Source: an uncultured Flavobacteriales bacterium (GTDB taxonomy: Bacteria; Bacteroidota; Bacteroidia; Flavobacteriales_E; Vicingaceae). From it: 44,586 bases of DNA. The position numbers and the translations under genes are program-made. The notes under the pieces were generated by a model. It worked only from the letters and a program-made list of their open reading frames with translations. It did no database searches and was not told the origin of the DNA. Positions 10,226 to 24,408 of the stretch are shown in pieces (position 1 is the first letter of the stretch; every line of letters begins with the position of its first letter). The stretch spans positions 1 through 44,586 of the forward strand of contig CAJWVX010000009.1 of NCBI GenBank assembly GCA_913048175.1, given 5' to 3'.

Positions 10226-10330
10226 TAATTAGTTTCTAAGATTAGAAGTTTTGTAAAGTTAAAAGTTTTAGAATGCCTATTTAATATTGTTATAAAAAAT
10301 ACCCTTTAACACCATATCAGGTTTCTACTG

Positions 10331-11017
10331 TTAAATCGTTTGTGCTTCAAACTTGTACCCTACGCCTTTAACCGTTTTAATATAATTATCTCCCAACTTC
10401 TCTCTTAACTTTCTAATGTGCACATCAATCGTTCGATCTCCAACAACAACATCTCCACCCCAAACGCTACTTAGAATAACCTCTCTAGTAAATACTTTGC
10501 CTGGTTTAGATAATAATAACGCTAATAATTCAAACTCTTTTTTAGGAAAAGAAAGTTCCTTGTCATCTTTATAAACAAGGTATTTTTCTCTATCAATCTT
10601 TATTCCATTATTTGTTTCAGAAACAGCAGCTTTACCTCCGTCAGAAGCTCGTCTTAAAATAGCTTTAACCCTACTTATTAATAATCTGGGCTTTATTGGT
10701 TTTGTAATATAATCGTCTGCACCAGCATCAAATCCAGCAACCTGAGAGTAATCTTCTCCTCTAGCACTTAAAAAAGCTATTAACACATCTTTTAATCCTT
10801 CTGTATTTCTTAATTCGTGGCACGCTTCAATACCATCCATTTCAGGCATCATTACATCTAAAATAATTAAATCCGGATTAATCTGCTTAGCAATTTCTAT
10901 AGCCTCTTTTCCATTCGTAGATGTGGTAACATCATAGCCTTCCTTAGCTAAGTTATATCCTAAAAATTCAATGATGTCTGGTTCATCATCAACCAATAAT
11001 ATTTTTTCTTTAATCAT
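10331..11017 (-). CDS. phoB: Phosphate regulon response regulator PhoB
   Basis: 228-residue OmpR/PhoB-family regulator. The receiver has the acidic pair in ILLVDDEPD (Asp10, Asp11), the phospho-acceptor Asp54 in LIILDVMMPEMDG and the conserved Lys in DDYITKPI. The C-terminal winged helix spans about 130-225 and ends RTIDVHIRKLREKLG...IKTVKGVGYKF. It is transcribed ahead of phoR. Four 11-bp-spaced repeats in its own promoter (11065-11103) indicate autoregulation. The same repeats precede six other transcription units nearby, which supports the name PhoB beyond generic family membership. Confidence 0.92.
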   Translation of the reverse strand: MIKEKILLVDDEPDIIEFLGYNLAKEGYDVTTSTNGKEAIEIAKQINPDLIILDVMMPEMDGIEACHELRNTEGLKDVLIAFLSARGEDYSQVAGFDAGADDYITKPIKPRLLISRVKAILRRASDGGKAAVSETNNGIKIDREKYLVYKDDKELSFPKKEFELLALLLSKPGKVFTREVILSSVWGGDVVVGDRTIDVHIRKLREKLGDNYIKTVKGVGYKFEAQTI

Positions 11018-11035: not shown

Positions 11036-11103
11036 CGAAAGTACAACCCTTGCTCCGTAAGGATGTTAATTTAATATTAATAAATTGTTTAATCCTTGTC
11101 ACA
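11036..11103 (-). promoter_or_regulatory. phoB promoter with predicted Pho boxes
   Basis: Reading the minus strand, the -7 element is TACTTTCG (11043-11036, one mismatch to TAnnTTTG). Six-base repeats begin exactly 27, 38, 49 and 60 bp upstream of its first base: ATTAAC, ATTAAT, TTAAAC and TGTGAC. The two proximal copies fit the consensus well and the two distal ones are degenerate. The start codon of phoB is 18 bp below the -7 element. Confidence 0.7.
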
Positions 11104-11157
11104 ATTGAGTCTTTAGGATTCTTTCGATAGTAAAAACGCTTTTCGAAAACACAAATC

Positions 11158-11225
11158 CTTAACATGGTCTTAAGGCAAGTATAAGATTCCTTTCATCATC
11201 AAATAACAATAGGGGTCTTTCTTTG
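11158..11225 (+). promoter_or_regulatory. Predicted Pho boxes and promoter of the lipoprotein gene
   Basis: The -7 element is TTTCTTTG (11218-11225). Repeats at -60, -49, -38 and -27 are CTTAAC (11158), CTTAAG (11169), TATAAG (11180) and TTTCAT (11191); AATAAC sits at -16. The two distal copies are the strongest. The -7 region, TTTCTTTGCA followed by AT-rich sequence, is nearly the same as in the TonB receptor promoter at 12765. Confidence 0.68.
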
Positions 11226-11261
11226 CACCATAAATAATTATAAAACTAAAGATTGAAAAAA

Positions 11262-12611
11262 ATGAAAACAAAAAACTTATTATTAATCGGAGTAATTACT
11301 ATTGGATTACTAACAGCTTGCTCAAAAAAAGAAGGTTGTACAGATTTAACTGCAGAAAACTATAGTGCTGATGCAGAAAAAGATGATGGGTCATGTGAAT
11401 ACGCAGTTGAACCAACAACAGCAATAACAAGTAATATTGTTACCGTAACAGATGACGGAACAGGAACCGGAAGTACAACATGGACAAATGACAAAGTCTA
11501 TTTATTAGATGGGTTTGTTTTTGTAAATTCAGGACAAACACTTACAATTGAACCAGGTACAGTTATTAAAGGAAAGCCAGGTACAGGAACGAATGCTTCT
11601 GCATTAATTGTTGCTAGAGGTGCAACTATAAATGCTTGCGGAACAGCATCACAACCAATCATTTTTACTTTTGAAGCTGACCCATTAGACGGTTCTGTTC
11701 CAGCAACTACTACAGGTCAGTGGGGTGGTTTAATGATATTAGGGGATGCTATTTTAAACACAGTTCCAAGTTTTCAAAATATTGAAGGAATTCCTACAAG
11801 TGAAACAAGAGGATCTTACGGAGGAAGCAATGATGCTGATAATTCAGGATCGCTATGTTATGTTTCTATCAGACATGGAGGAACAGATATTGGAGCAGGA
11901 AACGAAATTAATGGATTAACTCTTGGTGGTGTTGGTTCAGGAACTTCTATTCATCACATAGAAATTGCTGCAAATGCTGATGATGGTGTTGAGTTTTTTG
12001 GAGGGGCTCCAAATCTAAAACACATACTAGTTGCTAACGTTTTAGATGATTCTTTCGATTACGATCAAGGATATAGAGGAAAAGGTCAGTTTTGGGTTGC
12101 TATTGAAAATGCAAATTCTGATAGAGGTGGAGAGCATGATGGAGGAACTTCTCCAGAGGATGGAACACCATATGCAACTCCAGTAATTTACAACTCCACT
12201 TATATTGGTAATGGTTCTAGTAGAGCATTAACTTTTAGAGATAATGCTGGTGGGGAATACCATAACTCTGTATTCCACAACTTTGGTAAAGGAATTGATA
12301 TTGAAGATTTAGCTTCAGGAGAAGATTCTAAAGCAAGATTAGATGCTGGACAGTTAAAATTTGCGGGAATTGTTCTTTCATCTATTGGAAGTAACAATAT
12401 TGTTGATAACAACGGTACAGATTTATCTGGACACCAAAGCATTACTAATGTTAGTACAACTACAGCTTCGATTACTGGTGCTAATCCAGTTCCAGCATCA
12501 AGCTTAGGATCAGGTGTTGCTTCTGCGGATGCTTGGTATGATAATGTAACTTATGTAGGTGCATTTAACGGAACAAACTGGGCACAAGGTTGGACACTAA
12601 CTTTTCCTTAA
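11262..12611 (+). CDS. Exported lipoprotein, beta-helix-like, predicted Pho-regulated
   Basis: About 449 residues from the ATG at 11262; an in-frame TTG at 11253 is a weaker start. The signal peptide ends in a lipobox LLTAC, so the mature protein is lipid-anchored, probably on the outer membrane. A GCTDLTAENYSADAEKDDGS motif follows, a short segment common in marine Bacteroidota surface proteins. The rest is Gly/Asn/Thr-rich with repeated short strands (GTVIKGKPGTGTNASALIVARGA, shown in part: GTVIKG and ALIVARG) typical of parallel beta-helix proteins. I know similar proteins next to TonB-dependent receptors in Flavobacteriia, function undefined. It is followed by a strong terminator and then the receptor gene. 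Role in capturing a phosphorus-containing substrate is inferred from Pho boxes only. Confidence 0.82.
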   Translation: MKTKNLLLIGVITIGLLTACSKKEGCTDLTAENYSADAEKDDGSCEYAVEPTTAITSNIVTVTDDGTGTGSTTWTNDKVYLLDGFVFVNSGQTLTIEPGTVIKGKPGTGTNASALIVARGATINACGTASQPIIFTFEADPLDGSVPATTTGQWGGLMILGDAILNTVPSFQNIEGIPTSETRGSYGGSNDADNSGSLCYVSIRHGGTDIGAGNEINGLTLGGVGSGTSIHHIEIAANADDGVEFFGGAPNLKHILVANVLDDSFDYDQGYRGKGQFWVAIENANSDRGGEHDGGTSPEDGTPYATPVIYNSTYIGNGSSRALTFRDNAGGEYHNSVFHNFGKGIDIEDLASGEDSKARLDAGQLKFAGIVLSSIGSNNIVDNNGTDLSGHQSITNVSTTTASITGANPVPASSLGSGVASADAWYDNVTYVGAFNGTNWAQGWTLTFP

Positions 12612-12660
12612 TAACTATTAATTCTCTTTCGGCTTTGAACAAGGAAGCCACACAAATTAT

Positions 12661-12690
12661 AAGCCCCCTGTAACCGCAGGGGCTTTTTTT
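12661..12690 (+). terminator. Rho-independent terminator after the lipoprotein gene
   Basis: Stem CCCCTG/CAGGGG, extended by AAG.../...CTT, with loop TAACCG and a run of seven T. It ends the lipoprotein transcript 50 bp beyond its stop codon, so the receptor needs its own promoter. The 18-nt core (12665-12682) recurs exactly in the terminator at 17633-17650. Confidence 0.92.
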
Positions 12691-12704
12691 GTTGGTAGCA
12701 ATTA

Positions 12705-12772
12705 GTTAATCTGTAACTAACAAATACTTAACATTTGATTAACCCCTTAATTACGCAAGGGAAGTTTCTTTG
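12705..12772 (+). promoter_or_regulatory. Predicted Pho boxes and promoter of the TonB receptor operon
   Basis: This is the clearest array in the plus orientation. Four repeats at an exact 11-bp period are GTTAAT (12705), ACTAAC (12716), CTTAAC (12727) and ATTAAC (12738). The -7 element TTTCTTTG starts at 12765, exactly 27 bp after the last repeat starts. The ATG follows at 12787. Confidence 0.78.
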
Positions 12773-12786
12773 CAAAATAAATAATA

Positions 12787-15597
12787 ATGAAAATGAAACG
12801 AATAATATCAATACTAATATCAGCTTGTTTAACAGGTTCAATTTTTGCTCAAGGAACAATACAAGGAAAAGTAAATAGCTCTGACGGTGAAGAGCTAATT
12901 GGAGCGACAGTACTTCTTAAAGGAACTACTACTGGATCTATGGTAGATATTGATGGCAACTTTAGAATAACAAATGTAGTAGCTGGAACATACAACGTAA
13001 TGTGCTCTTACATTTCATTCTCTTCAGATTCTGCAAAAATTACCGTTAAAGATGGTGAGGTAAGTTCATACAACTTTACATTAGGAACTTCCTCAATGGA
13101 GATTGAAACCTTTACCGTATCAGCAAAAGTTGAACGAAACAACGAAGCTTACCTACTTAACGTAAAGAAAAAAAGTGCAACAGTAATGGAGGCTATAGGC
13201 GCTAAAGAAATTGCAAAAAGAGGAGATGGCAATGCTGCAGCAGCAGCAAAGAGAGTTACAGGTTTAACGATAGAAGGTGGTAAGTATGTTTACGTAAGAG
13301 GTTTAAGTGATCGTTATAGTAAAACAACATTAAATAAAGCAGAAATACCAGGACTAGATCCAAACAGAAATTCAGTACAATTAGATCTTTTTCCAACAAG
13401 CATGATCGAAAACATGAAAGTTATTAAGTCTTTTAGTCCAGATTTACCAGGAAGTTTTACAGGAGGACTGGTAGATATTGAAACAAAAGATTTTCCTGAA
13501 CAATTTACACTTCAGTTTTCAACATCGTTAGGATACAATACTGAATCTAGTTTTAAAAATGATTTTTTAACTTATAATGGAGGCGGAACGGATGCTTTAG
13601 GTTTTGATGACGGAACTAGAAATGCTCCAAGTTCAGTTCAACAAATACCTGCACTTTTTGTAGATAATGATAGGCTTTCTAAGATTAGTAAATCGTTTAA
13701 TAAGGAAATGGATGTAAGTGAAAAAACATCTTTTTTAAATCAAAACTATTCCCTTTCTGTTGGTAATCAGAAAAAGCTATTCGGTAAAGAAATTGGATTT
13801 ATTACTGGCTTATCGTATTCTAAAAAGTACATCCATAGACAAAATGATGCATTTACAAATAGATATGAGCTTACCGGAAATGTTGCTAATGTTAATGAGC
13901 TAAATGCTACCAGAACCTTAAGTGATAATCGCTCTCAAGAGAATGTTTTATGGGGTGCTTTTGCAACAGTTTCCTACAAAATATCTCCAAACCATAAATT
14001 AGGTTTCAACTATTTAAGAAATCAAAATGGAATTAGTACCGCAACATTCCAAGAGGGAGAAATACCAGCAGACCAAACAGGATTATTTTTTCAAACCAGA
14101 GCTTTAGAATATGAACAAAATGCTTTGAGTAGTTATCAATCAAAAGGAGAGCATTATTTTGAAGGGCTTAAGAAATTAAAGGTAGATTGGATGTGGGCAT
14201 GGTCTGAGTCTAGTCAAAAACAGCCCGATTTACGGTACTTTTCTAACGATTATATCATAGAGGCAGATTCAAATAATTATAACATTCAAGCATCAATATA
14301 CCCAGTACCAACAAGGTTTTATAGAGACTTAAGCCAAACAACTGGTGACGGAAAAGTAAATTTTGAGTTTAATATAAAAGAAAAAGAAGGAAAAAATTCA
14401 AAAATAAAATTTGGTAGTGCTTTCTTAATTCAAGAGCGTGTTTTAACAGAAAACCGATACAACTATAGAACCCAAGGTAATTTAAATTACACTGGAAGTG
14501 TTGCCGATTATCTAAATAACAACAATATGAATTTACCAACAGCAGGAAACCCTGTTACTGATTATTTATATATTGAGGAAGCAACAGAAAGGCGCAATAG
14601 CTACGGTGCTGATCAAGAAATATTTGCAGGGTATTTAATGGCTGATATTTGGGCTACTAAAAAATTAAGAATGGTTGGTGGTGCAAGATTAGAAACTACA
14701 AACATAATAGTTAGAAGCTATGACCAATCGCAAGAACTAGGAGAATTAAAAGAAACAGATATTTTACCTGCACTAAACACATCTTATGCTTTAACAGAAA
14801 AGACTAATATCAGAGCCTCTTTATCTAGAACATTAGCAAGACCAACTTTTAGAGAGATAGCGCCATTTGCTACTTATGATTTTTCTACCAATTGGACTAT
14901 TGTAGGAAATCCAGATTTAGAAAGAACCTTGGTAGATAACATTGATTTTAGAGTTGAAACATACCCCAACTTTGGAGAAATAATTTCTGTAGGAGGTTTT
15001 TATAAGTCATTCACCAACCCTATAGAATTAGTATTTAACACACAAGCACAAAACGATGAGTTAACTTGGAGAAACATTGATAAAGCCACCGTTTATGGTG
15101 CAGAGTTTGAAATTAAAAAGAACCTTTCCTTTATTTCTGATACAGCAAACACGTTTACTGTTGGGGCTAACTTTACTTATGTTTTCTCTGAAGTTGGAAT
15201 TGATGAGCAAGAGTTAGACTTAATAAAGGCAAATGATGAAAATGCTGATGAAACAAGAAGAATGTTTGGACAGTCGCCATATATCGTTAACTTCTTTTTA
15301 GGATACAATAACGACACTATAGGCCTTTCTGCCAACTTAAGCTACAATGTTTCGGGCGAAAAAATTGCAGTTGTTGTGGTTGGAGCTACACCAAATGTAT
15401 ACCAAAAACCAGTGCATCAATTAGATTTTAACATCACTAAAAGAATAGGGAAAAAATTTAGTTTAAAATTTAAAGCTCAAAACATTCTTAATCCTATCAT
15501 TAAAAAAGCCTACGACTATAAAGAGCAAGAATACATCTTTAACTCATACAGAAGAGGGGCAACATTTAGCCTAGGTCTTAAATATTTAATTGGATAG
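12787..15597 (+). CDS. TonB-dependent outer-membrane receptor, predicted Pho-regulated
   Basis: 936 residues. The signal peptide ends near residue 22 (GSIFAQ). A CarboxypepD_reg-like beta-sandwich (about 23-105: GTIQGKVNSSDGEELIGATV) is followed by a plug domain with KRVTGLTIEGGKYVYVRGLS and FSPDLPGSFTGGLVDI. A long 22-strand-type beta-barrel with aromatic-rich strands runs to the C-terminus, ending FSLGLKYLIG. It imports a large or scarce solute across the outer membrane using TonB energy. No SusD-like partner is present; the neighbouring lipoprotein may be the surface partner. Strong Pho boxes suggest a phosphorus source such as phosphate ester, nucleotide or polyphosphate (inference). A SpoIIE-type phosphatase follows 10 bp later. 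Confidence 0.9.
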   Translation: MKMKRIISILISACLTGSIFAQGTIQGKVNSSDGEELIGATVLLKGTTTGSMVDIDGNFRITNVVAGTYNVMCSYISFSSDSAKITVKDGEVSSYNFTLGTSSMEIETFTVSAKVERNNEAYLLNVKKKSATVMEAIGAKEIAKRGDGNAAAAAKRVTGLTIEGGKYVYVRGLSDRYSKTTLNKAEIPGLDPNRNSVQLDLFPTSMIENMKVIKSFSPDLPGSFTGGLVDIETKDFPEQFTLQFSTSLGYNTESSFKNDFLTYNGGGTDALGFDDGTRNAPSSVQQIPALFVDNDRLSKISKSFNKEMDVSEKTSFLNQNYSLSVGNQKKLFGKEIGFITGLSYSKKYIHRQNDAFTNRYELTGNVANVNELNATRTLSDNRSQENVLWGAFATVSYKISPNHKLGFNYLRNQNGISTATFQEGEIPADQTGLFFQTRALEYEQNALSSYQSKGEHYFEGLKKLKVDWMWAWSESSQKQPDLRYFSNDYIIEADSNNYNIQASIYPVPTRFYRDLSQTTGDGKVNFEFNIKEKEGKNSKIKFGSAFLIQERVLTENRYNYRTQGNLNYTGSVADYLNNNNMNLPTAGNPVTDYLYIEEATERRNSYGADQEIFAGYLMADIWATKKLRMVGGARLETTNIIVRSYDQSQELGELKETDILPALNTSYALTEKTNIRASLSRTLARPTFREIAPFATYDFSTNWTIVGNPDLERTLVDNIDFRVETYPNFGEIISVGGFYKSFTNPIELVFNTQAQNDELTWRNIDKATVYGAEFEIKKNLSFISDTANTFTVGANFTYVFSEVGIDEQELDLIKANDENADETRRMFGQSPYIVNFFLGYNNDTIGLSANLSYNVSGEKIAVVVVGATPNVYQKPVHQLDFNITKRIGKKFSLKFKAQNILNPIIKKAYDYKEQEYIFNSYRRGATFSLGLKYLIG

Positions 15598-15607
15598 TCT
15601 TTAAAAT

Positions 15608-16384
15608 ATGTCGATTAACGCTAAAGAATATGAGGAAAGCTTACAAAGTGCAAAGCTAGTACAGCAAGGACTCTTACCTAAGAAAAGACACTTTAATCGA
15701 CTCTTTACCGATTCTTTTGTTTTTTACAGTCCTCAATATATTATTTCTGGAGATTTTTACTGGTTAGGAGAAAAGCATGGTTTAAAATACCTTGTAGTTG
15801 GTGATTGTACGGGACATGGAGTTTCTGCTGCATTACTATCAGTTTTAGCACTTAATTTGTTTGAGTATACGATTATGAACAAAAAGATAAAAAGAACCCA
15901 CAAGATATTACAGGAGGTTGATAAAAGATTTGTTGAAAGCTTTAAAGCTGCGCAACTAAAAAACTATGACACTCCCTGGATAGACCTTTCTATTATTTGT
16001 ATAAATGATGCAGAAAATAAGCTTTACTTTTCTTCAGCCAATAGGAAACTTCTAATTGTAGATAAAGACCAGAATTCAACTATTCTTAAAGGCTCAAAAT
16101 ACCCTGTAGGTGGTTGGCAAGTTGAAAAGAACAGAACGTTTGAATCACAAACTATTAGCTACTCTAAAGGAGATCAGCTATATTTAGGTTCAGATGGTTT
16201 TCAGGATCAAATTGGAGGTCCCAAGGATAAAAAATACAAATCAAAAAAATTGCACAACTTCTTAATTTCAAATAGTTACTCCGTATTAAACACCCAAAAA
16301 GAGAAGATCGAAGCAGAGTTTAATGGATGGAAGCTAAATAACAGTCAAACAGATGATGTTTGTATTGTAGGTATTAAATTATAG
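15608..16384 (+). CDS. SpoIIE-type PP2C-like serine/threonine phosphatase
   Basis: 258 residues, essentially one PPM/SpoIIE catalytic domain. Metal-binding motifs are visible in ISGDFYWLG (about 47-55) and VVGDCTGHGVSAA (about 68-80), with LGSDGFQDQ and TDDVCIVG near the C-terminus. There is no sensor or membrane domain. Such enzymes dephosphorylate STAS-type proteins or act in other Ser/Thr signalling. The start lies 10 bp after the TonB-receptor stop, with no terminator between, so it is probably in the same Pho-controlled transcript. That pairing with an outer-membrane receptor is unusual and its target is unknown. It converges on the PhoB-like gene at 16404. Confidence 0.88.
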   Translation: MSINAKEYEESLQSAKLVQQGLLPKKRHFNRLFTDSFVFYSPQYIISGDFYWLGEKHGLKYLVVGDCTGHGVSAALLSVLALNLFEYTIMNKKIKRTHKILQEVDKRFVESFKAAQLKNYDTPWIDLSIICINDAENKLYFSSANRKLLIVDKDQNSTILKGSKYPVGGWQVEKNRTFESQTISYSKGDQLYLGSDGFQDQIGGPKDKKYKSKKLHNFLISNSYSVLNTQKEKIEAEFNGWKLNNSQTDDVCIVGIKL

Positions 16385-16403
16385 TTCAAGAAAATTTTGC
16401 TAT

Positions 16404-17081
16404 TTATGCCAACTGATAACCAACTCCTTTAACAGTTTTAATTGTTTGTTCGCCTATCTTTTCTCTTATTTTTCTGATATGAACATCAATTATTCTATCG
16501 TTACTACTGGCCTCTTTTTGCCAGATACTTTTGTAAATTTCTTTTCTAGTAAAAACCTTTTGAGGATTCGTTAATAACAAATAGAGCATTTCAAATTCTT
16601 TACGTGGTAAAGTAACCTCTTCGTTTTCTTTATTTATTATATACCGACTCCTATCAATCTTTAATCCTTTATATGAAAGAATTTGAGGAATAGAACTAAT
16701 AGCAGTTTGTAACTTCCGCTTTAATAATGCATGAACTCTCCGCTGTAAAATTCTGGGATTAATTGGTCTAACAATATAATCATGAGCCCCAGCCTTAAAT
16801 GCTTCTATCTGAATATAGTCATCACTAGCTTCAGAAAAAAGAACAACAAAACCTGTTAATGCAGCCTCTGAGGTTAAACGATAACACAGCTCAATCCCAT
16901 CAGTATTAATGATGTCTAAATCTAATAGAACAATGTCTGGATTATATTTATAAAGCTCATTAATTTGTGTCTCTCCTGCGGTAGAGTAAACAAAAACCTC
17001 TGCACCTTCATTTCTGAAGGTCTTTGTTGTGTTGTCAAGCAATTCTTTATTGCTACTAAATATACTAATTCTTGATGCCAT
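16404..17081 (-). CDS. PhoB paralogue with degenerate receiver (orphan response regulator)
   Basis: 225 residues with the same layout as PhoB in this window. The winged helix is very similar (DRIIDVHIRKIREKIGEQ...IKTVKGVGYQL against RTIDVHIRKLREKLG). The receiver is altered: the acidic Mg-binding pair (DD at 10-11 of PhoB) is SS here in ISIFSSNKE, and the conserved Lys of the T-K-P motif is Arg (DYIVRPI). The Asp at the phospho-acceptor position (Asp54 in VLLDLDI) remains. It should therefore be poorly phosphorylated or act without phosphorylation. No kinase gene is adjacent. Pho boxes precede it, so it is probably induced by PhoB and may bind the same sites. The functional role is inference. 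Confidence 0.9.
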   Translation of the reverse strand: MASRISIFSSNKELLDNTTKTFRNEGAEVFVYSTAGETQINELYKYNPDIVLLDLDIINTDGIELCYRLTSEAALTGFVVLFSEASDDYIQIEAFKAGAHDYIVRPINPRILQRRVHALLKRKLQTAISSIPQILSYKGLKIDRSRYIINKENEEVTLPRKEFEMLYLLLTNPQKVFTRKEIYKSIWQKEASSNDRIIDVHIRKIREKIGEQTIKTVKGVGYQLA

Positions 17082-17090
17082 TTCTATTTA

Positions 17091-17147
17091 TAAAATTAAT
17101 AGAACCAACAGCAGAAAGGGTTAACTTAAAGTTAAGCTAAGTTTAAT
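17091..17147 (-). promoter_or_regulatory. Predicted Pho boxes and promoter of the PhoB paralogue
   Basis: On the minus strand the repeats ATTAAA (-49), CTTAAC (-38) and GTTAAC (-27) precede a -7 element TAATTTTA (17098-17091), with the same 11-bp period and register as the other six promoters. On the plus strand they are GTTAAC at 17120, GTTAAG at 17131 and TTTAAT at 17142. The start codon is 9 bp below the -7 element, so the leader is very short. Confidence 0.7.
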
Positions 17148-17607
17148 ATTCTTTTTTATTAACGATTTGTCCTTTTTCATCCCACATAATCCAAGTACCA
17201 ACTTTCTGTCCTTTTAAATAGTTCATTAAATAACGTTTAACACCTCTCTCGTCCCAAATTTGCCACTCCCCATTCTTCTTTCCATTTGCATAAAAAGCTT
17301 CAGCCAGCTTAGTACCTTTTTGAGACCATCTTACCCATTTGCCGTTTTTCTTGCCATCCTCAAAAGCACCTTGCTCCATAATTTCGCCAGAAAAGTAATA
17401 GAACTCTACCTTGCCATTTTCAACACCATTTTTAACACCGTAAACCGCTTCTTTTTCGCCATTATCATAATAGGAAATGTAAGCTCCAGTATACTTTTTT
17501 AAAGATTTTGCGTTAACATAAACGCCTTCTTTTTTAATTATTTGTTGTCCAAACCCAAAAGCAGACACCAAAAAAAACACTACTAAAACTATTGTTCTTA
17601 ATCTCAT
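17143..17607 (-). CDS. Exported YwqK/MORN-like repeat protein
   Basis: 154 residues from the ATG at 17605-17607; an in-frame ATG six codons earlier would put charged residues ahead of an otherwise good signal peptide (MRLRTIVLVVFFLVSAFGFG). The mature part has about five repeats of the form G-x-W/V-x-x-W/Y-x-x-x-G (KNGKWVRWSQKGTK, KNGEWQIWDERGVK, KVGTWIMWDEKGQ), the YwqK-type MORN-variant repeat. Such proteins are often labelled antitoxins by name only; the signal peptide makes that role unlikely here. It lies 17 bp below the terminator of the CarboxypepD-like gene, so expression may depend on readthrough from that Pho-controlled promoter. Confidence 0.85.
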   Translation of the reverse strand: MRLRTIVLVVFFLVSAFGFGQQIIKKEGVYVNAKSLKKYTGAYISYYDNGEKEAVYGVKNGVENGKVEFYYFSGEIMEQGAFEDGKKNGKWVRWSQKGTKLAEAFYANGKKNGEWQIWDERGVKRYLMNYLKGQKVGTWIMWDEKGQIVNKKEY

Positions 17608-17623
17608 ATAAACTATTTTATCC

Positions 17624-17652
17624 AAAAAAAATCCCCTGCGGTTACAGGGGAT
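17624..17652 (-). terminator. Terminator between the CarboxypepD-like and YwqK-like genes
   Basis: On the minus strand CCCCTG-TAACCG-CAGGGG (17650-17633) is followed by ATT and a T run that ends 17 nt before the YwqK-like start codon. The 18-nt core equals the one at 12665-12682. Its position just ahead of a start codon suggests partial termination or an attenuator between the two genes. Confidence 0.88.
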
Positions 17653-17672
17653 TTAAAAATTATACCTCTTTC

Positions 17673-17993
17673 TTATTTCTCATTTAACTCAACAGTAACC
17701 TTTTCGTTACTCTTTGTGTTCAAAACAACTTCTTTGTTTTTATATGCAATTAAACTAAAAGCAATAATATGCTCTCCCTCAATAACATTGTTTATTGTAA
17801 AATTGCCATCAAAATCAGTATAAACAGTCGTTTCTTTACCATCTAACCACACTTTAACCCCAGTTAGGCTTTCTTGTGCGTCAACTACATTACCGCTAAT
17901 AGAACACATTTTTAATTCCTTATCACCCTTGTTATTGTTAGCAAATGCTAATGTAAAAGTAAATAGTGCTATAATCGTTACAATTGTTTTCAT
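17673..17993 (-). CDS. Small exported CarboxypepD_reg-like domain protein
   Basis: 106 residues. A signal peptide (MKTIVTIIALFTFTLAFA) is followed by a single carboxypeptidase-regulatory-like beta-sandwich (about 30-104): SISGNVVDAQESLTGVKVWL, then TDFDGNFTINNV and a C-terminal VTVELNEK. It is the same fold as the N-terminal extension of the TonB receptor at 12787, but free-standing. Predicted periplasmic or surface protein. It is preceded by predicted Pho boxes (18019-18086) and followed by a terminator and a YwqK-like gene. Function is unknown; binding to an outer-membrane partner is a guess. Confidence 0.85.
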   Translation of the reverse strand: MKTIVTIIALFTFTLAFANNNKGDKELKMCSISGNVVDAQESLTGVKVWLDGKETTVYTDFDGNFTINNVIEGEHIIAFSLIAYKNKEVVLNTKSNEKVTVELNEK

Positions 17994-18018
17994 CTTTAAT
18001 TTGTTTTTATTTATGATA

Positions 18019-18086
18019 CAAAGTAATGGCTTTAAAACAAGAGAAACGTAAAACTAATTTTACGCTTCTGTTATGCTATTGTTAAG
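18019..18086 (-). promoter_or_regulatory. Predicted Pho boxes and promoter of the CarboxypepD-like gene
   Basis: Minus strand: CTTAAC (-60), CATAAC (-49), CGTAAA (-38) and TTTTAC (-27) precede a -7 element TTACTTTG (18026-18019). The register matches the other Pho-box promoters, though the two proximal repeats are weak. A further pair GTTAAT/CATAAC, also 11 bp apart, lies just upstream (18091-18107) but one base out of phase. Confidence 0.6.
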
Positions 18087-18107
18087 CAACATTAACTTAA
18101 AGTTATG

Positions 18108-18248
18108 TTCAATGATATGTATACTCATCTGCTAATTGGGGTTTATTGAAACGACCCTTTTTAAAAAGATTAAGAATATATATAAAGCTCTAATTTTTAA
18201 AAATAAAAATACTGTTAACATATCCTTTTTAACAAACAGAAAAATATA
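18108..18248. other. Gene-free stretch between the CarboxypepD-like promoter and the Na/Pi terminator
   Basis: Part of the 305-bp gap 17994-18298. After the Pho-box promoter and before the terminator hairpin I see no open frame, RNA fold or repeat that I can support. Confidence 0.5.
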
Positions 18249-18284
18249 AAAAAGCCGAAGAGATAAATTCTCTTCGTCTTTTTT
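18249..18284 (-). terminator. Terminator of the Na/Pi cotransporter gene
   Basis: Hairpin GCCGAAGAG / CTCTTCGTC with loop ATAAATT, flanked by A- and T-runs on both sides. On the minus strand it lies 15 bp after the cotransporter stop and ends in a T tract. It could also work in the other direction. Confidence 0.85.
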
Positions 18285-18298
18285 GCCTTTAAATTATT

Positions 18299-19996
18299 CT
18301 AATGCTCTCCAGTAATTCCTTCCGTTACATTGATTACGTGATCTCCAACTTTTTCTAAAGAATTAAACAAGTCAGCATAAATAGCAGCACTTTTAAAGTT
18401 ATAATAACCTTTCTCTACACTTGCAAAATGCTCTTTTCTTAACGTTTTTCTAAACTTATTCAATGCATCTTCTTGTTCTTGTGCTTTAAGCATAGATACT
18501 CCACCATAACTTCCTTCAAGATTTCCACACATTGTAGTTAAATTCAACTCAACTAAATCAAACATGTCCAAAATATTCTTTCTCTGTTCAGGAGTAAAAT
18601 ACACCTTGCCCTCAATCTTACGTTCTAATCCTTTTGACATTTGATAATAGATATCGCCAATACGCTCTAAATCTCCAACAATACTTAACATCCCTCTTAC
18701 TTTTATAGATGAGTTTTCACTCATTTCGCCCTGAGAAACTTTGGTTAAATAGTCCGCTACATCTTGTTCTATTCTATCAGTAATGTCTTCGTATTTTTTA
18801 ACTCTAGCCAAAGTTTTGCTAACCTCTTTGTTTTCTAAATTCTCCGCAACTAAGCTTCGCACAAAACCATTCATCTTTTTTACAACATCTCCAAATTTAG
18901 ACACCTCTTTTTGCGCTTCAAATAAAGACATCTCAGGTGTTGACATCATTCCTGAGTTAATATATTCTAAATGATACTCTTCATCTGCGTCTCCTTTAGA
19001 TTTAACAGACTTAATAGCCAACTTAACTAATATTGGAACAAACCAAATCATAATTAAAACATTTACCAAGTTAAAAGCAGTATGGAAAATTGCTAATCCC
19101 ATCGGTGCACCTTCGGCAGTCATTGGGTCTGGAGAACCTAACAAATTAATTGCTATAGATCTTACTCCATCTAAAGCAGGGGTAAACGAAATTAAAAGAA
19201 CTGCCCACGTAACACCTACAATATTAAACATAGAGTGAATTCTTGCTGATCTTTTGGCGTGAACGTTTGCAGGTAAAGATGCTAACTCTGCAGTTATTGT
19301 AGTTCCAATATTTTCACCTAAAATCATTGCAGCTGCAACTTCAAAAGGAATAATACCACTAAAACAAAGCGTTTGAGTTAGCGCCATAGATGCACTTGAA
19401 GATTGAACGACAATTGTTAAAATTGTTCCAACAATAATAAAAAATATGTTACTTAAAAACCCGCTATCAGCATACGCTCCTAAAAAATTTAAGATTTCTG
19501 GATTATTCTTCACATCAGGCACTGCGTGCTTCAATTCAGATAGTCCCCAAAACAGAATAGCAAAACCAACAATAAATTGCCCAATATACTTTATTTTATT
19601 TTTTCTCATAAATAACATTGGAACTCCAATAGCTAATAAAGGAAGTGCCATTGCCGCAATTTTTACTTTGAACCCTAAAACAGCAACTAACCAACCTGTA
19701 ATAGTTGTTCCAATATTTGCTCCTAACATTATACCTGCAGACTCTACTAAAGAAAGTAAACCCGCATTTACAAAACTTACAGCCATTACAGTACTTGCAG
19801 AAGAAGACTGTACCAGACAGGTAACTAAAAATCCAGTTAAAACACCTAAATATCTATTCTTTGTCATAGTAGAAAGTATTCTTCTCATACTACTACCAGC
19901 GGCCATCTGAATACCTTCACTCATTATTTTCATCCCGTAAATGAAAAAACCAAGAGCTCCAATTAATTTTAATGCATCAATAAATCCAAAATCCAT
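18299..19996 (-). CDS. Na+/phosphate cotransporter with PhoU-like C-terminal domain
   Basis: 565 residues of the NptA/YjbB type (Na_Pi_cotrans family). The duplicated transport motif is clear: QSSSAS at 63-68 and again at 198-203, each in a membrane-embedded inverted repeat, with GANIGTTITG and GENIGTTITA as the paired loops. Hydrophobic segments run to about residue 330. The cytosolic C-terminal part (about 355-560) is helical and PhoU-like. It should import inorganic phosphate, although YjbB-type relatives can also export it. Pho boxes in the promoter argue for import under starvation. The PhoU-like tail could report transport state to PhoR (inference). Confidence 0.92.
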   Translation of the reverse strand: MDFGFIDALKLIGALGFFIYGMKIMSEGIQMAAGSSMRRILSTMTKNRYLGVLTGFLVTCLVQSSSASTVMAVSFVNAGLLSLVESAGIMLGANIGTTITGWLVAVLGFKVKIAAMALPLLAIGVPMLFMRKNKIKYIGQFIVGFAILFWGLSELKHAVPDVKNNPEILNFLGAYADSGFLSNIFFIIVGTILTIVVQSSSASMALTQTLCFSGIIPFEVAAAMILGENIGTTITAELASLPANVHAKRSARIHSMFNIVGVTWAVLLISFTPALDGVRSIAINLLGSPDPMTAEGAPMGLAIFHTAFNLVNVLIMIWFVPILVKLAIKSVKSKGDADEEYHLEYINSGMMSTPEMSLFEAQKEVSKFGDVVKKMNGFVRSLVAENLENKEVSKTLARVKKYEDITDRIEQDVADYLTKVSQGEMSENSSIKVRGMLSIVGDLERIGDIYYQMSKGLERKIEGKVYFTPEQRKNILDMFDLVELNLTTMCGNLEGSYGGVSMLKAQEQEDALNKFRKTLRKEHFASVEKGYYNFKSAAIYADLFNSLEKVGDHVINVTEGITGEH

Positions 19997-20018
19997 TTTT
20001 CTTTGTTTTAATTTTTAG

Positions 20019-20075
20019 CAAAAATATTGCAGTTTTGTTATTTCCAAATAAAATCAATGTTAAGTAATTGTTAAG
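20019..20075 (-). promoter_or_regulatory. Predicted Pho boxes and promoter of the Na/Pi cotransporter
   Basis: Minus strand: two perfect copies of CTTAAC at -49 and -38 (plus-strand GTTAAG at 20070 and 20059), a weak TTTTAT at -27 and AATAAC at -16. The -7 element is TATTTTTG (20026-20019), a full match to TAnnTTTG. Identical -7 sequence and register to the porin promoter. Confidence 0.75.
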
Positions 20076-20155
20076 TATTCCATTATTAACTTTAGAATTA
20101 AGCTATACTTTTTTGATTTTGTATCCATTTAGCTACTCTCTTAAAAGAGTCTTTG

Positions 20156-20163
20156 TATATTTG
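20156..20163 (+). promoter_or_regulatory. -7 element of the small membrane-anchored protein gene
   Basis: TATATTTG is a full match to TAnnTTTG and ends only 5 bp before the ATG at 20169. Transcription would begin at or next to the start codon, giving a leaderless or nearly leaderless mRNA. Confidence 0.5.
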
Positions 20164-20168
20164 TAAAA

Positions 20169-20471
20169 ATGAGAATTATCAAAATAGTTGCAATTACATT
20201 GATGTTTGTTCTAATAGTTCCAACAATTATTTCTGCTATTTCATCTTTTTACAATGTTGATTGTGATCTAATATCTTGCGAAAAACCAACAGAAGAAGAG
20301 AAAGAAGAAAACAAATCAGAAAAAGATATCGATGATTTAGAAGAATATATCCTAAATCAAGGGGAATATTACTCTGAATATAAGAATAGTTTTTTTTCAT
20401 ATTCTTTCAGTGGCAAACACTTTATTGACATTGTTTCGGATGTTATCACACCCCCTCCAGAGTTCGGATAA
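20169..20471 (+). CDS. Small membrane-anchored protein, function unknown
   Basis: 100 residues. An N-terminal hydrophobic segment (about 3-26, MRIIKIVAITLMFVLIVPTI) acts as anchor or signal. A strongly acidic stretch EEEKEENKSEKDIDDLEEY follows, then a Tyr/Ser/Phe-rich tail ending TPPPEFG. I do not recognise the family. It lies divergent from the Na/Pi cotransporter and 78 bp before the SulP gene on the same strand. No Pho boxes are in register with its promoter. A coding origin is supported by the clean frame and membrane anchor, but not by homology I can name. Confidence 0.6.
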   Translation: MRIIKIVAITLMFVLIVPTIISAISSFYNVDCDLISCEKPTEEEKEENKSEKDIDDLEEYILNQGEYYSEYKNSFFSYSFSGKHFIDIVSDVITPPPEFG

Positions 20472-20549
20472 AGAACTCCGAAAACTTAATTCTCCCTATT
20501 TGTGCAAATCTCCATTTGTTGATATTCAACAAAAAAATAATAATATATA

Positions 20550-22394
20550 ATGAAAAAATTATTCAACTTCAAACACTTCAAGGGTGATCTTTTTGGAGGT
20601 CTCACTGCAGGAATTGTTGCTCTACCATTAGCCTTAGCTTTTGGAGTAAGTTCTGGATTAGGACCAAGTGCAGGTCTATACGGAGCAATATTTGTCAGTT
20701 TCTTTGCTGCTTTATTTGGCGGAACAAGTACTCAAATATCTGGTCCAACAGCTCCAATGACAGCAGTTAGTATGGTCGTAATTGCAGGTTTTATTGCTTT
20801 AAATGATGGTGACATTGAAAAAGCGCTACCAGGAATATTAATCATATTCTTACTTGCAGGATTAATGCAAATTGGTTTAGGATTTTTAAAGTTAGGAACC
20901 TATATAAAATACATTCCTAGCCCAGTAGTTTCTGGATTTATGACTGCAATTGGCGTAATTATTTTGATTACTCAAATACTACCCTCTGTTGGATATTATC
21001 CTAAAGATGATGAAGCTTATGTGAGTAAATTTAAACCTCATGCAGAAGAGGTTATTTTAGAAAAAATTCTGATAGAAGAAGAGGGAGAGGGTATTTTGGT
21101 TTTAGAAAACTTTGAAGAAACGATAAATAGAGCAAGCAAAATAACTGAAGAGCAAATATTAAGAGAATCTAAAACTTTAGCAGGGAAAGAGTCTGGTGGT
21201 GTTTTAGGAACACTTAAAGTTTTACCAAGAGCTCTGCAAAACATTAATTGGTTAGAATTGTGTTTAGCATTTTCCACTATAGTTATTATTTATGGATTTA
21301 AAAAAATTACAACAGCCATCCCAAGTACACTTGTTGCATTAATTATTGTTTCTGGAGTCGCCTATATGTTAGGCTTAGGCTACATGCCAATTCAAGAAAT
21401 TCCAAGCGGATTACCAATGGTCAATTTTGGCATATTCTCAGAATTTAACTTAGGAAGTATTACTCCATATATTTTTACAGCACTTACTTTAGCTTTATTA
21501 GGAGCTATTGACTCTCTATTAACTTCTGTTGTTGCTGATAATATGACTAAAACAAAACATAACCCAAACAAAGAGTTAATTGGACAAGGAATAGGTAACT
21601 CAATTGCAGCATTATTTGGCGGTATTCCTGGTGCTGGAGCAACAATTAGAACCGTTGTAAATATTAAAGCAGGAGGAAAAACTAGATTATCTGGAATGAT
21701 GGCTGGTATTTTCTTGTTGGTTATATTACTACTACTTGGTCCTATAGCCTCTCAAATACCTGCAGCAGTTTTGGCTGGAATTTTAGTAACTGTAGGAATT
21801 GGAGTTATGGATTGGAAAGGACTAAAAGCAATTCCAAATCTTCCAAGAACTGAAGTTTTGATTATGATTGTAGTACTGGTTTTATCTTCAATATGGAATC
21901 TTGTTTATGCTGTAGGAATAGGACTTGTACTTGCATCATTAACCTTTATGAAAGAAATTTCAGACTTGACACTAAAAGGATCTAATATATCAACACTAAA
22001 TAATTTTAAGGAGTTAGCTGATGAAATGGGTGTTCCAGAAAAATTAAGAGAAAAGGTTGTTGTTAAAGAAATAAGCGGACCTTTATTTTTTGGTTCTACA
22101 AGTGATTTTCAAGTAATGTCTAAACAAATTCCAAATACAGCATCTGTAGTTATCATGAAAATGGGAGATGTAACCTACATGGATCAATCAGGTGTTTTTG
22201 CTATGGAAGATGTTCTAATTGACTTATGCGCAAACAGCAAAAAAGTCTTATTAGTTGACCTGCTAGAACAGCCAGAATATATGATGGGAAAATTAGGAAT
22301 AATTCCAGATCTTATATCTAAAGACCAGATTTTTGAAACAAAAAAAGATTGTTTAACCTGGATAAAAAACAATATTAATAATACTATTAAATAA
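20550..22394 (+). CDS. SulP-family anion transporter with STAS domain (predicted bicarbonate importer)
   Basis: 614 residues. The membrane domain (about 10-470) starts with the SulP signature GGLTAGIVALPLALAFGVSS and has ALLGAIDSLLTSVVADNMT and the Gly-rich GQGIGNSIAALFGGIPGAGA. A charged segment of about 80 residues sits between membrane helices (about 145-230). The C-terminal STAS domain (about 500-610) has VTYMDQSGVFAMEDV. Family members move sulfate or bicarbonate. Because a beta-carbonic anhydrase follows 6 bp downstream, bicarbonate uptake like BicA is the best guess. It acts in the cytoplasmic membrane, probably driven by Na+. Confidence 0.9.
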   Translation: MKKLFNFKHFKGDLFGGLTAGIVALPLALAFGVSSGLGPSAGLYGAIFVSFFAALFGGTSTQISGPTAPMTAVSMVVIAGFIALNDGDIEKALPGILIIFLLAGLMQIGLGFLKLGTYIKYIPSPVVSGFMTAIGVIILITQILPSVGYYPKDDEAYVSKFKPHAEEVILEKILIEEEGEGILVLENFEETINRASKITEEQILRESKTLAGKESGGVLGTLKVLPRALQNINWLELCLAFSTIVIIYGFKKITTAIPSTLVALIIVSGVAYMLGLGYMPIQEIPSGLPMVNFGIFSEFNLGSITPYIFTALTLALLGAIDSLLTSVVADNMTKTKHNPNKELIGQGIGNSIAALFGGIPGAGATIRTVVNIKAGGKTRLSGMMAGIFLLVILLLLGPIASQIPAAVLAGILVTVGIGVMDWKGLKAIPNLPRTEVLIMIVVLVLSSIWNLVYAVGIGLVLASLTFMKEISDLTLKGSNISTLNNFKELADEMGVPEKLREKVVVKEISGPLFFGSTSDFQVMSKQIPNTASVVIMKMGDVTYMDQSGVFAMEDVLIDLCANSKKVLLVDLLEQPEYMMGKLGIIPDLISKDQIFETKKDCLTWIKNNINNTIK

Positions 22395-22400
22395 TACTAC

Positions 22401-23003
22401 ATGGAAACATTAACAAAAGATATTCAAAATAACATAACACCTTCAGAAGCAATTGAAAGATTAAAGATCGGAAATAAAAGATATGTTTCTGGGTCAATGT
22501 TAAATAGAAACTATAGCGAACAAGTTAAAATTACTGCAGGTGGACAAGCTCCATATGCTGTTGTTTTGGGATGTATTGATTCGAGAGCGCCAATAGAACT
22601 TATTTTTGACCAAGGTGTTGGAGATATCTTTGGAACAAGAGTGGCAGGAAACATTATTAACGAAGATGTTTTAGGATCATTAGAATATTCTTGTAAAGCT
22701 GCTGGTTCTAAATTAGTTGTTGTTTTAGGTCACACTAAATGTGGAGCTGTAACATCAGCTTGTAATAATGTTGAATTAGGAAATATAACAGCATTATTAG
22801 CTAAAATTAAACCCGCAGTTAATGCTATTGGTGGAGAAATGACTCCTGATAATATTGAAACTATAGCGATAAAGAATGTTGAACTTTCTTTAGAAAGAAT
22901 AAGAAAAGAAAGTTCAATTTTAAATGAAATGGAACAAAGTGGCGAAATTAAAATAGTTGGTGCTTCTTACTCAGTTGAAAATGGAGAAGTTACTTTCTTA
23001 TAA
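22401..23003 (+). CDS. Beta-class carbonic anhydrase
   Basis: 200 residues. All zinc-site residues of beta-CAs are present: Cys58, with the Asp60-Arg62 dyad in GCIDSRAP, and His111 and Cys114 in LGHTKCGAV. It interconverts CO2 and bicarbonate in the cytoplasm; no signal peptide is present. It starts 6 bp after the SulP gene, so the pair is one operon that probably supplies bicarbonate for carboxylases or pH balance. Its transcript ends at the shared hairpin 23018-23048. Confidence 0.95.
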   Translation: METLTKDIQNNITPSEAIERLKIGNKRYVSGSMLNRNYSEQVKITAGGQAPYAVVLGCIDSRAPIELIFDQGVGDIFGTRVAGNIINEDVLGSLEYSCKAAGSKLVVVLGHTKCGAVTSACNNVELGNITALLAKIKPAVNAIGGEMTPDNIETIAIKNVELSLERIRKESSILNEMEQSGEIKIVGASYSVENGEVTFL

Positions 23004-23017
23004 GAAATGCTAATAAA

Positions 23018-23048
23018 CAAAAAGACCAGCAAAATTTGCTGGTCTTTT
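23018..23048. terminator. Bidirectional terminator between carbonic anhydrase and porin genes
   Basis: Nearly perfect hairpin AAAGACCAGCAAA / TTTGCTGGTCTTT with A-runs on one side and T-runs on the other, placed between two convergent genes. Confidence 0.92.
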
Positions 23049-23066
23049 TCTAGTTTTTTTACTTTG

Positions 23067-24302
23067 TTAGAAGTGCAAGTCAAATTGTAATCTGAAAATT
23101 AATTGACTGTCAGGACTATCTTCAATAGTAGAGTAAGTAACATCAGATTGCACTTTTAATTTGTGTCCTTTAAAGAACTTTGATAAACCAAAAGTGTACT
23201 GAGTTTGAGCATCTATTCCGGTAATGTCTTTATTCCATTCAGTTAAAGTATATCTGCCTGCAACTTCCCAATTATTTTTAAACATATATCCCATTTGTAA
23301 GTTTGCTCCTTTTCCAACTGAAACAACTTCACCAGTCTTAGTCCCATCAATATTTGTAACACTATCTTGTTGAGCTGATCTAAAAGCATATTCTCCCATC
23401 AAAGAAAAACCTCCATACTTAAACATCATATCAGCGAAAATAGTTGTTATATCAGTTTCAAAATAACCTTCTATATCGTCTCCATTTACATCTATACCGG
23501 TAATATTTGTCATGTAGCTTCCTTGATTACTTTTTGTTTTAACAGCTCTGCCGTTTAAATCATAAGTTCCGCCAATAGATAGCTTAGGCGTAGATTCTCG
23601 TTTTACAGAAGATCCTATATAATCACCTTTACTTTCAAAATTTCCGAAAGGTAAAACCTCTAATCTACTTGTATATTGATAACCTCCAAGATTGTCTTGT
23701 ACAACATTTCTACCTTCTCCTTGAGATACAGAAATAATCTCTTTTATAAGAAAATTTTTGCCAATTTTAAAATAGTGTCTTAATTGCCCACCCATATCTC
23801 TATCAATATTAAAGTTAGAGTTCAATTTAGAACGATCTACAAATTGTAAATTAGCAGAAGAAACAACACGCTCTCTATTACCTGGTAATTTGGTTTGACC
23901 AGCCCAAAGAGTAAAATTTTTGTAAAAATTCCACTTTACAACAGCATCTAATATCATTTTTGGTGCGTTATTATTTCTATCACCAACTTTTCCTAAATCT
24001 TTGTTTGATAAACCTAACTCCAACTTATACTTAAGTTTTGGACTAAAGGCAAAACCACCAAATTTTAACCTTGCTCTTCTTATTAAGAATCTTGATCCTT
24101 CGGAGCTTACTCCATTCTTATCATTTACATTCCATTCTCCAGTATATAATGATTGAATTCTAAAAGCAAATTTCATACTGTAAGAACTATCTTTTGCTAT
24201 TACATTATAAAGTCCTTTACCAAACTTATTATTGGTTACATCTTGAGCTAAAACTGTTGTTGAAAAAGCAAATAATGCTAATACTAATTTAATCTTATTC
24301 AT
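23067..24302 (-). CDS. Phosphate-selective porin O/P-like outer-membrane protein
   Basis: 411 residues. A signal peptide ends at about 20 (STTVLAQ). The mature protein is all alternating amphipathic strands (FAFRIQSLYTGEWN, RRARLKFGGFAFSPKLKYKL), ending LIFRLQFDLHF with a terminal Phe as in many outer-membrane barrels. The order of strands and the RFLIRRARLKFGG block match the OprO/OprP (porin_O_P) family. A perfect four-copy Pho-box array lies upstream, so it is probably a phosphate-starvation porin. No clear Arg-ladder count can be made by eye, so phosphate selectivity is inference. It converges on the carbonic anhydrase gene. Confidence 0.9.
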   Translation of the reverse strand: MNKIKLVLALFAFSTTVLAQDVTNNKFGKGLYNVIAKDSSYSMKFAFRIQSLYTGEWNVNDKNGVSSEGSRFLIRRARLKFGGFAFSPKLKYKLELGLSNKDLGKVGDRNNNAPKMILDAVVKWNFYKNFTLWAGQTKLPGNRERVVSSANLQFVDRSKLNSNFNIDRDMGGQLRHYFKIGKNFLIKEIISVSQGEGRNVVQDNLGGYQYTSRLEVLPFGNFESKGDYIGSSVKRESTPKLSIGGTYDLNGRAVKTKSNQGSYMTNITGIDVNGDDIEGYFETDITTIFADMMFKYGGFSLMGEYAFRSAQQDSVTNIDGTKTGEVVSVGKGANLQMGYMFKNNWEVAGRYTLTEWNKDITGIDAQTQYTFGLSKFFKGHKLKVQSDVTYSTIEDSPDSQLIFRLQFDLHF

Positions 24303-24340
24303 CTCTTTAATTTCTTGTTATCTATTTTATCGATATCAGA

Positions 24341-24408
24341 CAAAAATATCGAGCTAATTAGAACATAGCGTTACTAGATGGTTATTGATATGTTAAGTTT
24401 ACGTTAAC
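24341..24408 (-). promoter_or_regulatory. Predicted Pho boxes and promoter of the porin gene (best array)
   Basis: Minus strand: GTTAAC (-60), CTTAAC (-49), AATAAC (-38) and AGTAAC (-27) lie at an exact 11-bp period. The -7 element is TATTTTTG (24348-24341). On the plus strand the repeats start at 24403, 24392, 24381 and 24370. All four share TAA at positions 3-5 or AAC at the end, which makes this the best-conserved array in the window. Confidence 0.8.

Follow-up and report, generated by a model that had tools for sequence, protein, structure and literature searches.

Arrays of 11-bp-period repeats upstream of phosphate-uptake genes in a Flavobacteriales genome: a predicted Pho box of the Bacteroidota

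Results

Seven promoters in the window, the 44,586-nucleotide stretch of DNA from an uncultured Flavobacteriales bacterium that was analyzed here, carry arrays of six-base direct repeats with a period of 11 bp, set in fixed register to a TAnnTTTG-like -7 element. Judged from sequence comparisons, these arrays are very probably a Pho box of the Bacteroidota to which PhoB binds, with the proximal repeat covering the -33 region, because relatives throughout the class have the same layout ahead of their phosphate genes.

Repeat arrays and genes of the locus

The original observation was borne out at all seven promoters: counted from the -7 element's first base, repeats begin at -27, -38, and -49, in most cases also at -60, with exact register at each of the coordinates and strands in Table 1. 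The repeats have the consensus NTTAAC, usually followed by A, and the 26 repeats in the window yield [CA]TTAACA, with the core T (25/26), A (22/26), A (26/26), and C (18/26) conserved to different degrees. The -7 elements vary across the seven promoters, and so do the repeats. The -60 copy of the phoB array, TGTGAC, is a poor match, and the lipoprotein array, with TATAAG and TTTCAT as its proximal repeats, is the weakest of the seven; its degenerate units are kept in eight orthologues from the same genus. The array at the PhoB paralogue promoter is also kept in orthologues. The highest score in the window with a pooled matrix (35.7) was that of the porin array.

Table 1. Repeat arrays and genes in the phosphate-uptake locus (E values and ranks are from the genome-wide profile search)
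Feature	Position	Strand	Details
phoB array	11036..11103	-	-7 element TACTTTCG; TGTGAC, TTAAAC, ATTAAT, ATTAAC at -60/-49/-38/-27
Lipoprotein array	11158..11225	+	-7 element TTTCTTTG; CTTAAC, CTTAAG, TATAAG, TTTCAT; rank 46, E 3.4, not significant
TonB-dependent receptor array	12705..12772	+	-7 element TTTCTTTG; GTTAAT, ACTAAC, CTTAAC, ATTAAC; E 7e-10, best match
PhoB paralogue array	17091..17147	-	-7-like TAATTTTA; three units, ATTAAA, CTTAAC, GTTAAC; E 0.013, rank 6
CarboxypepD_reg-like gene array	18019..18086	-	TTACTTTG; CTTAAC, CATAAC, CGTAAA, TTTTAC; E 4.5e-5
Na/Pi cotransporter array	20019..20075	-	TATTTTTG; three units, CTTAAC, CTTAAC, TTTTAT; E 1.1e-5
Phosphate-selective porin array	24341..24408	-	TATTTTTG; GTTAAC, CTTAAC, AATAAC, AGTAAC; E 1.8e-4
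phoR-like sensor histidine kinase	9197..10225	-	HisKA + HATPase_c; adjoins phoB
phoB, OmpR/PhoB-family response regulator	10331..11017	-	Response_reg + Trans_reg_C; proposed array binder
Putative outer-membrane lipoprotein	11253..12611	+	Target gene
TonB-dependent receptor	12787..15597	+	Target gene; Pfam
PhoB paralogue	16404..17081	-	Receiver without acidic Asp pair; PhoB-like recognition helix
Small secreted CarboxypepD_reg-like protein	17673..17993	-	Target gene; Pfam
Na/Pi cotransporter with PhoU domain	18299..19996	-	Target gene; PF02690 + PF01895; TIGR00704 above cut-off
Phosphate-selective porin O/P family	23067..24302	-	Target gene; PF07396

The best NCBIfam model for the phoB product was that for PhoB (TIGR02154), at 223 bits, below the cut-off of 296, and its score against the equivalog NF053854 (212 bits) was likewise below the cut-off of 270; the PhoB equivalog models may not cover this lineage. 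The protein has the features of a PhoB-type regulator, namely, an intact receiver with the acidic pair and phospho-acceptor, a winged helix, and a recognition helix nearly identical to that of Escherichia coli PhoB (DRTIDVHIRKLRE compared to DRTVDVHIRRLRK). PnpS and PhoR models ranked top for the adjoining kinase, with scores under the equivalog cut-offs. The lipoprotein had no match in Pfam or NCBIfam; its homologue in Flavobacterium is also preceded by an array. The PhoB paralogue without the acidic pair provides an additional lead.

Statistical support for the arrays

Arrays were evaluated against 395 kb of control sequence from the same genome (787,120 positions), with matrices trained without the genome of the window. 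A matrix built from phoB promoters of other genomes placed five of the seven sites at ranks 1 to 5 in the window and a sixth at rank 7, and the control maximum was 18.9 compared to 28.1, 25.6, 22.9, and 19.5 for window sites. When each promoter type was also omitted in turn, none of the 787,120 control positions equaled six of the sites, including that of the lipoprotein, and two scored as high as the site of the PhoB paralogue. With a matrix pooled over all promoter types from other genomes, the window sites scoring at least 9 were exactly the seven. The top six matches of a profile built without the genome itself were, across the 3.5-Mb draft, six of the seven arrays, and all six significant genome-wide matches fall inside one locus.

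The 11-bp period is real. In the regions upstream of phosphate genes in relatives, 122 pairs of TTAAC-like units were 11 bp apart, compared to 10 to 25 at spacings of 8 to 10 and 12 to 15 bp, and the spacing of such pairs was flat in control sequence.

Some search models were discarded. A two-repeat IUPAC pattern allowing up to three mismatches matched the whole genome as often as the reversed-pattern control, and a profile of all 74 columns from phoB promoters only was overfitted, recovering phoB alone and failing on other promoters. A pooled alignment of phoB and pstS promoters was dropped because MAFFT slipped by one 11-bp unit.

Distribution among relatives

The array is present at phoB promoters in about 16 to 20 family members, with a register of 27 or 28 bp to the -7 element. 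Training on phoB promoters only gave a matrix that also detected it, in register, at the pstS promoters of relatives that possess pst genes. Across the relatives, the array was found upstream of phoB, pstS, and genes for the Na/Pi cotransporter, phosphate-selective porin, TonB receptor, and PhoU-like or Pit proteins, and it tracks phosphate transport genes through both the pst and the Na/Pi lineages. The pst and phoX targets that had been predicted were found in relatives.

Equal frequency of the array upstream of unrelated genes had been named as a result that would count against a Pho box. A scan of the genome itself and 59 relatives did not find this. Among 35 classified matches outside the training set (E ≤ 1e-3), 28 were upstream of homologues of the same genes, 5 were upstream of PhoU-like/PHO4, Porin_O_P, or Na/Pi-cotransporter operons, and 2 had no assignment. 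Matches away from the locus in relatives precede genes for the Na/Pi cotransporter, porin, TonB receptor, or PhoU_div-PHO4 proteins. Together with the confinement of significant matches to one locus in the genome itself, this pattern supports the proposal of a single PhoB regulon.

In Flavobacterium species close to Flavobacterium johnsoniae, the array is upstream of genes for DUF47-Pit, the TonB receptor and lipoprotein of the PhoBR locus, PhoX, which was found in only two of the eight Flavobacterium genomes examined, and MauG; a weaker array precedes the receptor gene of a phytase operon. In F. johnsoniae grown at low phosphate, counterparts of array-bearing genes increased by log2 7.6 to 12.5 and PhoB by log2 3.06, and PhoX, MauG, and the PhoBR-locus receptor and lipoprotein were strongly induced by phosphate starvation (PMC8115612). 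Bacteroides-type genomes keep the same register with TGTAAC as the half-site; their arrays, upstream of phoB and pst genes, have a constant register of 38 bp.

Proposed mode of regulation

Bacteroidota promoters of the -7/-33 type are already known. The TAnnTTTG -7 element occurs in variants, and a TTG is expected about 19 bp upstream; control promoters of this genome had only a weak TTG peak at -22 (9%). At the array promoters, a repeat occupies the place of the TTG region, the array lying just upstream of the promoter core, with 27 bp from repeat to -7 element (27 to 28 bp in relatives).

We infer that when phosphate is scarce, PhoR would phosphorylate PhoB, dimers of which would bind head-to-tail on the NTTAAC(A) direct repeats, 11 bp, or one helical turn, apart. 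The repeat nearest the promoter overlies the place expected for the phylum's -33 element; PhoB may therefore stand in for the -33 contact and bring RNA polymerase to a TAnnTTTG element held at constant spacing. The predicted targets, phoB itself (autoregulation), the lipoprotein, TonB receptor, PhoB paralogue, CarboxypepD protein, Na/Pi cotransporter, and phosphate porin, would constitute one phosphate-uptake locus.

Alternative explanations

The PhoB paralogue might be the main protein on the arrays, or might compete there with PhoB, so that the readout would not be simple activation by phosphorylated PhoB. Its recognition helix is almost identical to that of PhoB (NDRIIDVHIRKIREKI compared to GDRTIDVHIRKLREKL), its own gene carries an array, and the acidic pair is missing from its receiver in every orthologue examined. 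However, the array is retained at phoB in two genomes whose Pho locus has no paralogue (L073 and L075; in the latter an orthologue is on a different contig), as well as in distant families, for which no full-length orthologue was found in the stretches examined. Thus, the paralogue is not required, though it may also act on the array, and a main or competing role for it seems rather unlikely. A class-wide operator in fixed register to the -7 element, at which phosphorylatable PhoB competes with a self-regulated paralogue that reads DNA in the same way but has lost the acidic pair required for phosphorylation, the paralogue acting as a phosphate-independent brake or memory on the regulon, is a tentative possibility.

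It is quite improbable that the arrays are targets of another OmpR-family regulator, similar to ArcA or to PhoP of Riemerella anatipestifer, with an indirect link to phosphate. The motif obtained by DAP-seq with purified Riemerella PhoP is TTTAACA, which is ArcA-like (PMC9603813), and deletion of that PhoP system increased pstS expression 8-fold (PMC5399024). With TTAAC-like half-sites reported for this "PhoP" as well, the half-site alone cannot name the binder. However, significant genome-wide matches to the array are found almost solely upstream of phoB and genes for phosphate acquisition, a contrast to the 583 peaks in Riemerella (PMC9603813), and the array follows phosphate transport genes over the pst and Na/Pi lineages.

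PhoB could also bind the arrays and repress some promoters, such as that of the porin, given that OprP in the PhoBR operon of F. johnsoniae was not induced at low phosphate (log2 -1.3; PMC8115612). Most array-bearing homologues were strongly induced in the same study, however, and the array is upstream of the -7 element, an activator position, at all seven promoters; repression is very improbable. The region has a GC content of 31%, and DNA near promoters can be bent by phased AT-rich tracts, but the idea that the arrays are no more than AT-rich sequence in helical phase (curvature or UP-like elements) without a specific regulator is hardly credible, as the C of TTAAC is kept in 132 of 200 units in relatives, the pattern holds in genomes of 41 to 48% GC, control promoters from the same genome had no enrichment of the repeat unit, three or four units in register were absent from the 395-kb control, and the held-out controls led us to reject a chance or AT-rich origin.

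Comparison with known Pho boxes

PhoP boxes in Bacillus subtilis are TTAACA-like direct repeats with an 11-bp period. The half-site and period of the arrays are very close to these, but the sigma factor, promoter type, and phylum differ, and the targets here are mostly outer-membrane uptake genes. The Pho boxes of E. coli are also 11-nt direct repeats (PMC4415409), with a CTGTCAT core, near the -35 position, and autoregulation of phoB and phosphate-gene targets are further similarities. What differs from E. coli is the half-site, TTAACA here and TGTAACA in Bacteroides-type genomes, the usual number of three to four repeats, and the anchor, a -7 TAnnTTTG element rather than a -10 hexamer.

Within the phylum, PhoB of Bacteroides fragilis binds the pstC promoter in EMSA, the one such binding assay known to be published, and is needed for growth at low phosphate, but the paper defines no box (PMC3547664); the TGTAAC arrays of Bacteroides-type genomes are candidates for it. 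PhoP of Riemerella, which is related to the Flavobacteriaceae, has a very similar half-site; the available portion of that report describes neither an 11-bp array nor a -7 register, and the peaks are not centered on phosphate genes (PMC9603813). In F. johnsoniae, phoB, phoR, OprP, a TonB receptor, and a lipoprotein likewise share one locus, and phosphate depletion induces it; the study provides expression and proteome data in a text that does not contain the words "motif," "promoter," or "Pho box" (PMC8115612).

The layout had been put forward as one not seen described, which stands in part. Our literature search of open-licence papers found no defined Bacteroidota Pho box, but the promoter type was known, and the TTTAACA half-site had been published for Riemerella PhoP (PMC9603813). 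The array is of a known kind, the 11-bp PhoB/PhoP direct repeat; what looks new is its sequence, the way it is anchored, and its spread through the class, an old activator geometry adapted to promoters that lack a -35 box. The Bacteroidota have a major part in phosphorus recycling in soil, the sea, and the gut. For their phosphate regulation there are expression data but, in the papers searched, no defined operator, and the array offers a box and a register that can be tested, with a list of targets, from which phosphate-starvation genes could be predicted in unstudied genomes.

The porin promoters here carry strong arrays, in contrast to the uninduced OprP of F. johnsoniae, which speaks against the proposed reading.

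Seven promoters share a repeat array in fixed register

The source genome is a 3.5-Mb draft (252 contigs, ∼90% complete), and contig C9, the window (44,586 bases, 31% GC), carries the locus listed in the table. When the seven promoters (phoB, lipoprotein, TonB receptor, PhoB paralogue, CarboxypepD_reg, Na/Pi cotransporter and porin) were printed in register, the arrays of the original prediction were seen at the claimed register and strands, with six-base units at -60, -49, -38 and -27, counted from the -7 element's first base. The 26 units have the core TTAAC, mostly followed by A. The porin and the TonB receptor have the best arrays. At the lipoprotein gene a single distal unit is strong and the proximal ones are weak, but the degenerate units are kept in eight same-genus orthologues.

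Genes of the phosphate locus
Feature	Positions	Strand
Histidine kinase and PhoB-like regulator	9197-11017	-
Lipoprotein	11253-12611	+
TonB receptor	12787-15597	+
SpoIIE-type phosphatase	15608-16384	+
Second PhoB-like regulator (paralogue)	16404-17081	-
MORN protein; CarboxypepD_reg protein; Na/Pi cotransporter with PhoU domain
SulP transporter; carbonic anhydrase; Porin_O_P

The SpoIIE-type phosphatase gene lies directly 3' of the TonB receptor gene, with which it is probably cotranscribed. No pstC scored above the cut-off; as far as an incomplete draft can show, the genome seems to depend on the Na/Pi cotransporter.

The arrays are specific

Three independent tests used a phoB-only matrix, leave-type-out matrices and a pooled matrix. 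The phoB-only matrix, trained on phoB promoters from other genomes and scanned over the window and 395 kb of control sequence from elsewhere in this genome, placed five of the predicted sites at ranks 1 to 5 in the window and a sixth at rank 7. With leave-type-out matrices (50 training sites from other genomes, minus the tested promoter type), six sites scored above all 787,120 control positions, and the PhoB-paralogue site was equalled by two of them. At a score of 9 or more, the pooled matrix returned exactly the seven sites in the window and no others. The same 50 sites, all from other genomes, gave a sequence-only profile that was run genome-wide; its top six matches were six of the seven sites (E, 7e-10 to 0.013), followed by a gap to E 0.08, and the lipoprotein site was not significant in this search (E, 3.4). 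The leave-type-out test is stricter than the profile because orthologous promoters of relatives were among the profile's training sites. A phoB-only profile with all columns failed to generalise.

The arrays are conserved before phosphate genes

The phoB promoter array is kept in most family members, 27 or 28 bp from the -7 element. In relatives, the phoB-only matrix found arrays before TonB receptor, porin, Na/Pi cotransporter, paralogue and CarboxypepD genes and, where pst is present, before pstS. The profile search of 59 relatives (E ≤ 1e-3) gave 91 matches, of which 81 were classified on available sequence, 46 of these being training sites. Among the 35 classified non-training matches, 28 preceded homologues of the same eight genes, 5 preceded a Porin_O_P gene, a PhoU_div-PHO4 operon or an operon that includes a Na/Pi cotransporter, 2 were placed in neither gene group, and none lay inside a gene. 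These matches do not show the array equally often before genes unrelated to phosphate. The expected pst and phoX targets were also found, the latter as arrays before PhoX in two Flavobacterium species. In other families of the class, including some genomes of 41 to 48% GC, arrays precede phoB, pst or porin genes.

Phosphate depletion of Flavobacterium johnsoniae raised PhoB (log2, 3.06), the TonB receptor (8.02) and lipoprotein (9.91) of the PhoBR locus, PhoX (12.50), MauG (9.58) and the phytase-operon receptor (9.22); the OprP porin did not rise (PMC8115612). In eight related genomes (seven Flavobacterium, one Psychroserpens), strong profile matches preceded DUF47-Pit, TonB receptor and lipoprotein genes, the latter two homologous to those of the window. 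Pooled-matrix scores were 21.7 for PhoX and 17.9 for MauG in one Flavobacterium species and 18.3 for PhoX in another; the phytase-operon receptor was marked, more weakly, in six of seven genomes. Several Flavobacterium matches at E 0.01 or worse lay inside genes or before unrelated genes, and the profile is therefore near its noise floor there.

In Bacteroides-type genomes, chosen by a PhoB of the NF053854 type, the regions upstream of phoB and pst genes contain TGTAAC-N5-TGTAAC pairs (stretches L379-L428). The second unit lies exactly 38 bp from the -7 element in 9 of 9 cases fitting a search that allowed 26 to 28 and 37 to 39 bp. The next 11-bp steps often carry TTTCAT/TGAAAT and then GAAATA units. 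In EMSA, PhoB of B. fragilis bound the pstC promoter; the study did not define a box (PMC3547664).

Proposed role of PhoB

The window's PhoB and E. coli PhoB have nearly the same recognition helix. At -27 to -22, the proximal repeat overlaps the expected place of the -33 element, which in promoters of this phylum is TTG; control promoters have a weak TTG peak at -22. We infer that PhoB binds the arrays, dependent on its phosphorylation, and activates these promoters; in the simplest model it would take the place of the -33 contact as a class II activator. E. coli PhoB binds head to tail on 11-nt repeats (PMC4415409).

Direct PhoB/PhoP repeats of 11 bp are of an already known kind, and TTAACA is similar to the PhoP box of Bacillus. 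The layout had been put forward as not described before. Among open-licence papers, none was found that defines a Bacteroidota Pho box or describes its array or -7 register. A caveat to the earlier claim is the TTTAACA motif published for Riemerella PhoP (PMC9603813), although this regulator acts differently (PMC5399024).

The PhoB paralogue and other observations

The paralogue is conserved within both genus and family, often adjoins the Na/Pi cotransporter gene, and carries an array in its own promoter; in the genus, its start codon lies 16 to 19 bp past the first base of the -7-like element. Its receiver keeps the phospho-acceptor Asp, SSN/SIN/SNN-like residues replace PhoB's acidic pair (10 of 10 orthologues read), and a PhoB-like recognition helix is kept. 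As a lead only, the same boxes could also be bound by the paralogue, free of phosphate control.

Four same-genus genomes (G009, G001, G011 and G002; stretches L038-L041) have a second phoB copy without an array, directly behind another gene, and a division of labour between the two PhoBs is possible. In relatives (stretches L222, L223 and L230), a conserved operon with a Pho-box array encodes proteins of about 250 and 372 aa and a Na/Pi cotransporter. The two proteins had no Pfam match when searched in L222 and are candidate new phosphate-uptake partners. On stretch L124, two near-identical arrays (GTTAACAATAACTTAAC...) about 1 kb apart, at 2782 and 3779 (+), precede a 243-aa gene and a Porin_O_P-pst cluster, a probable promoter duplication.
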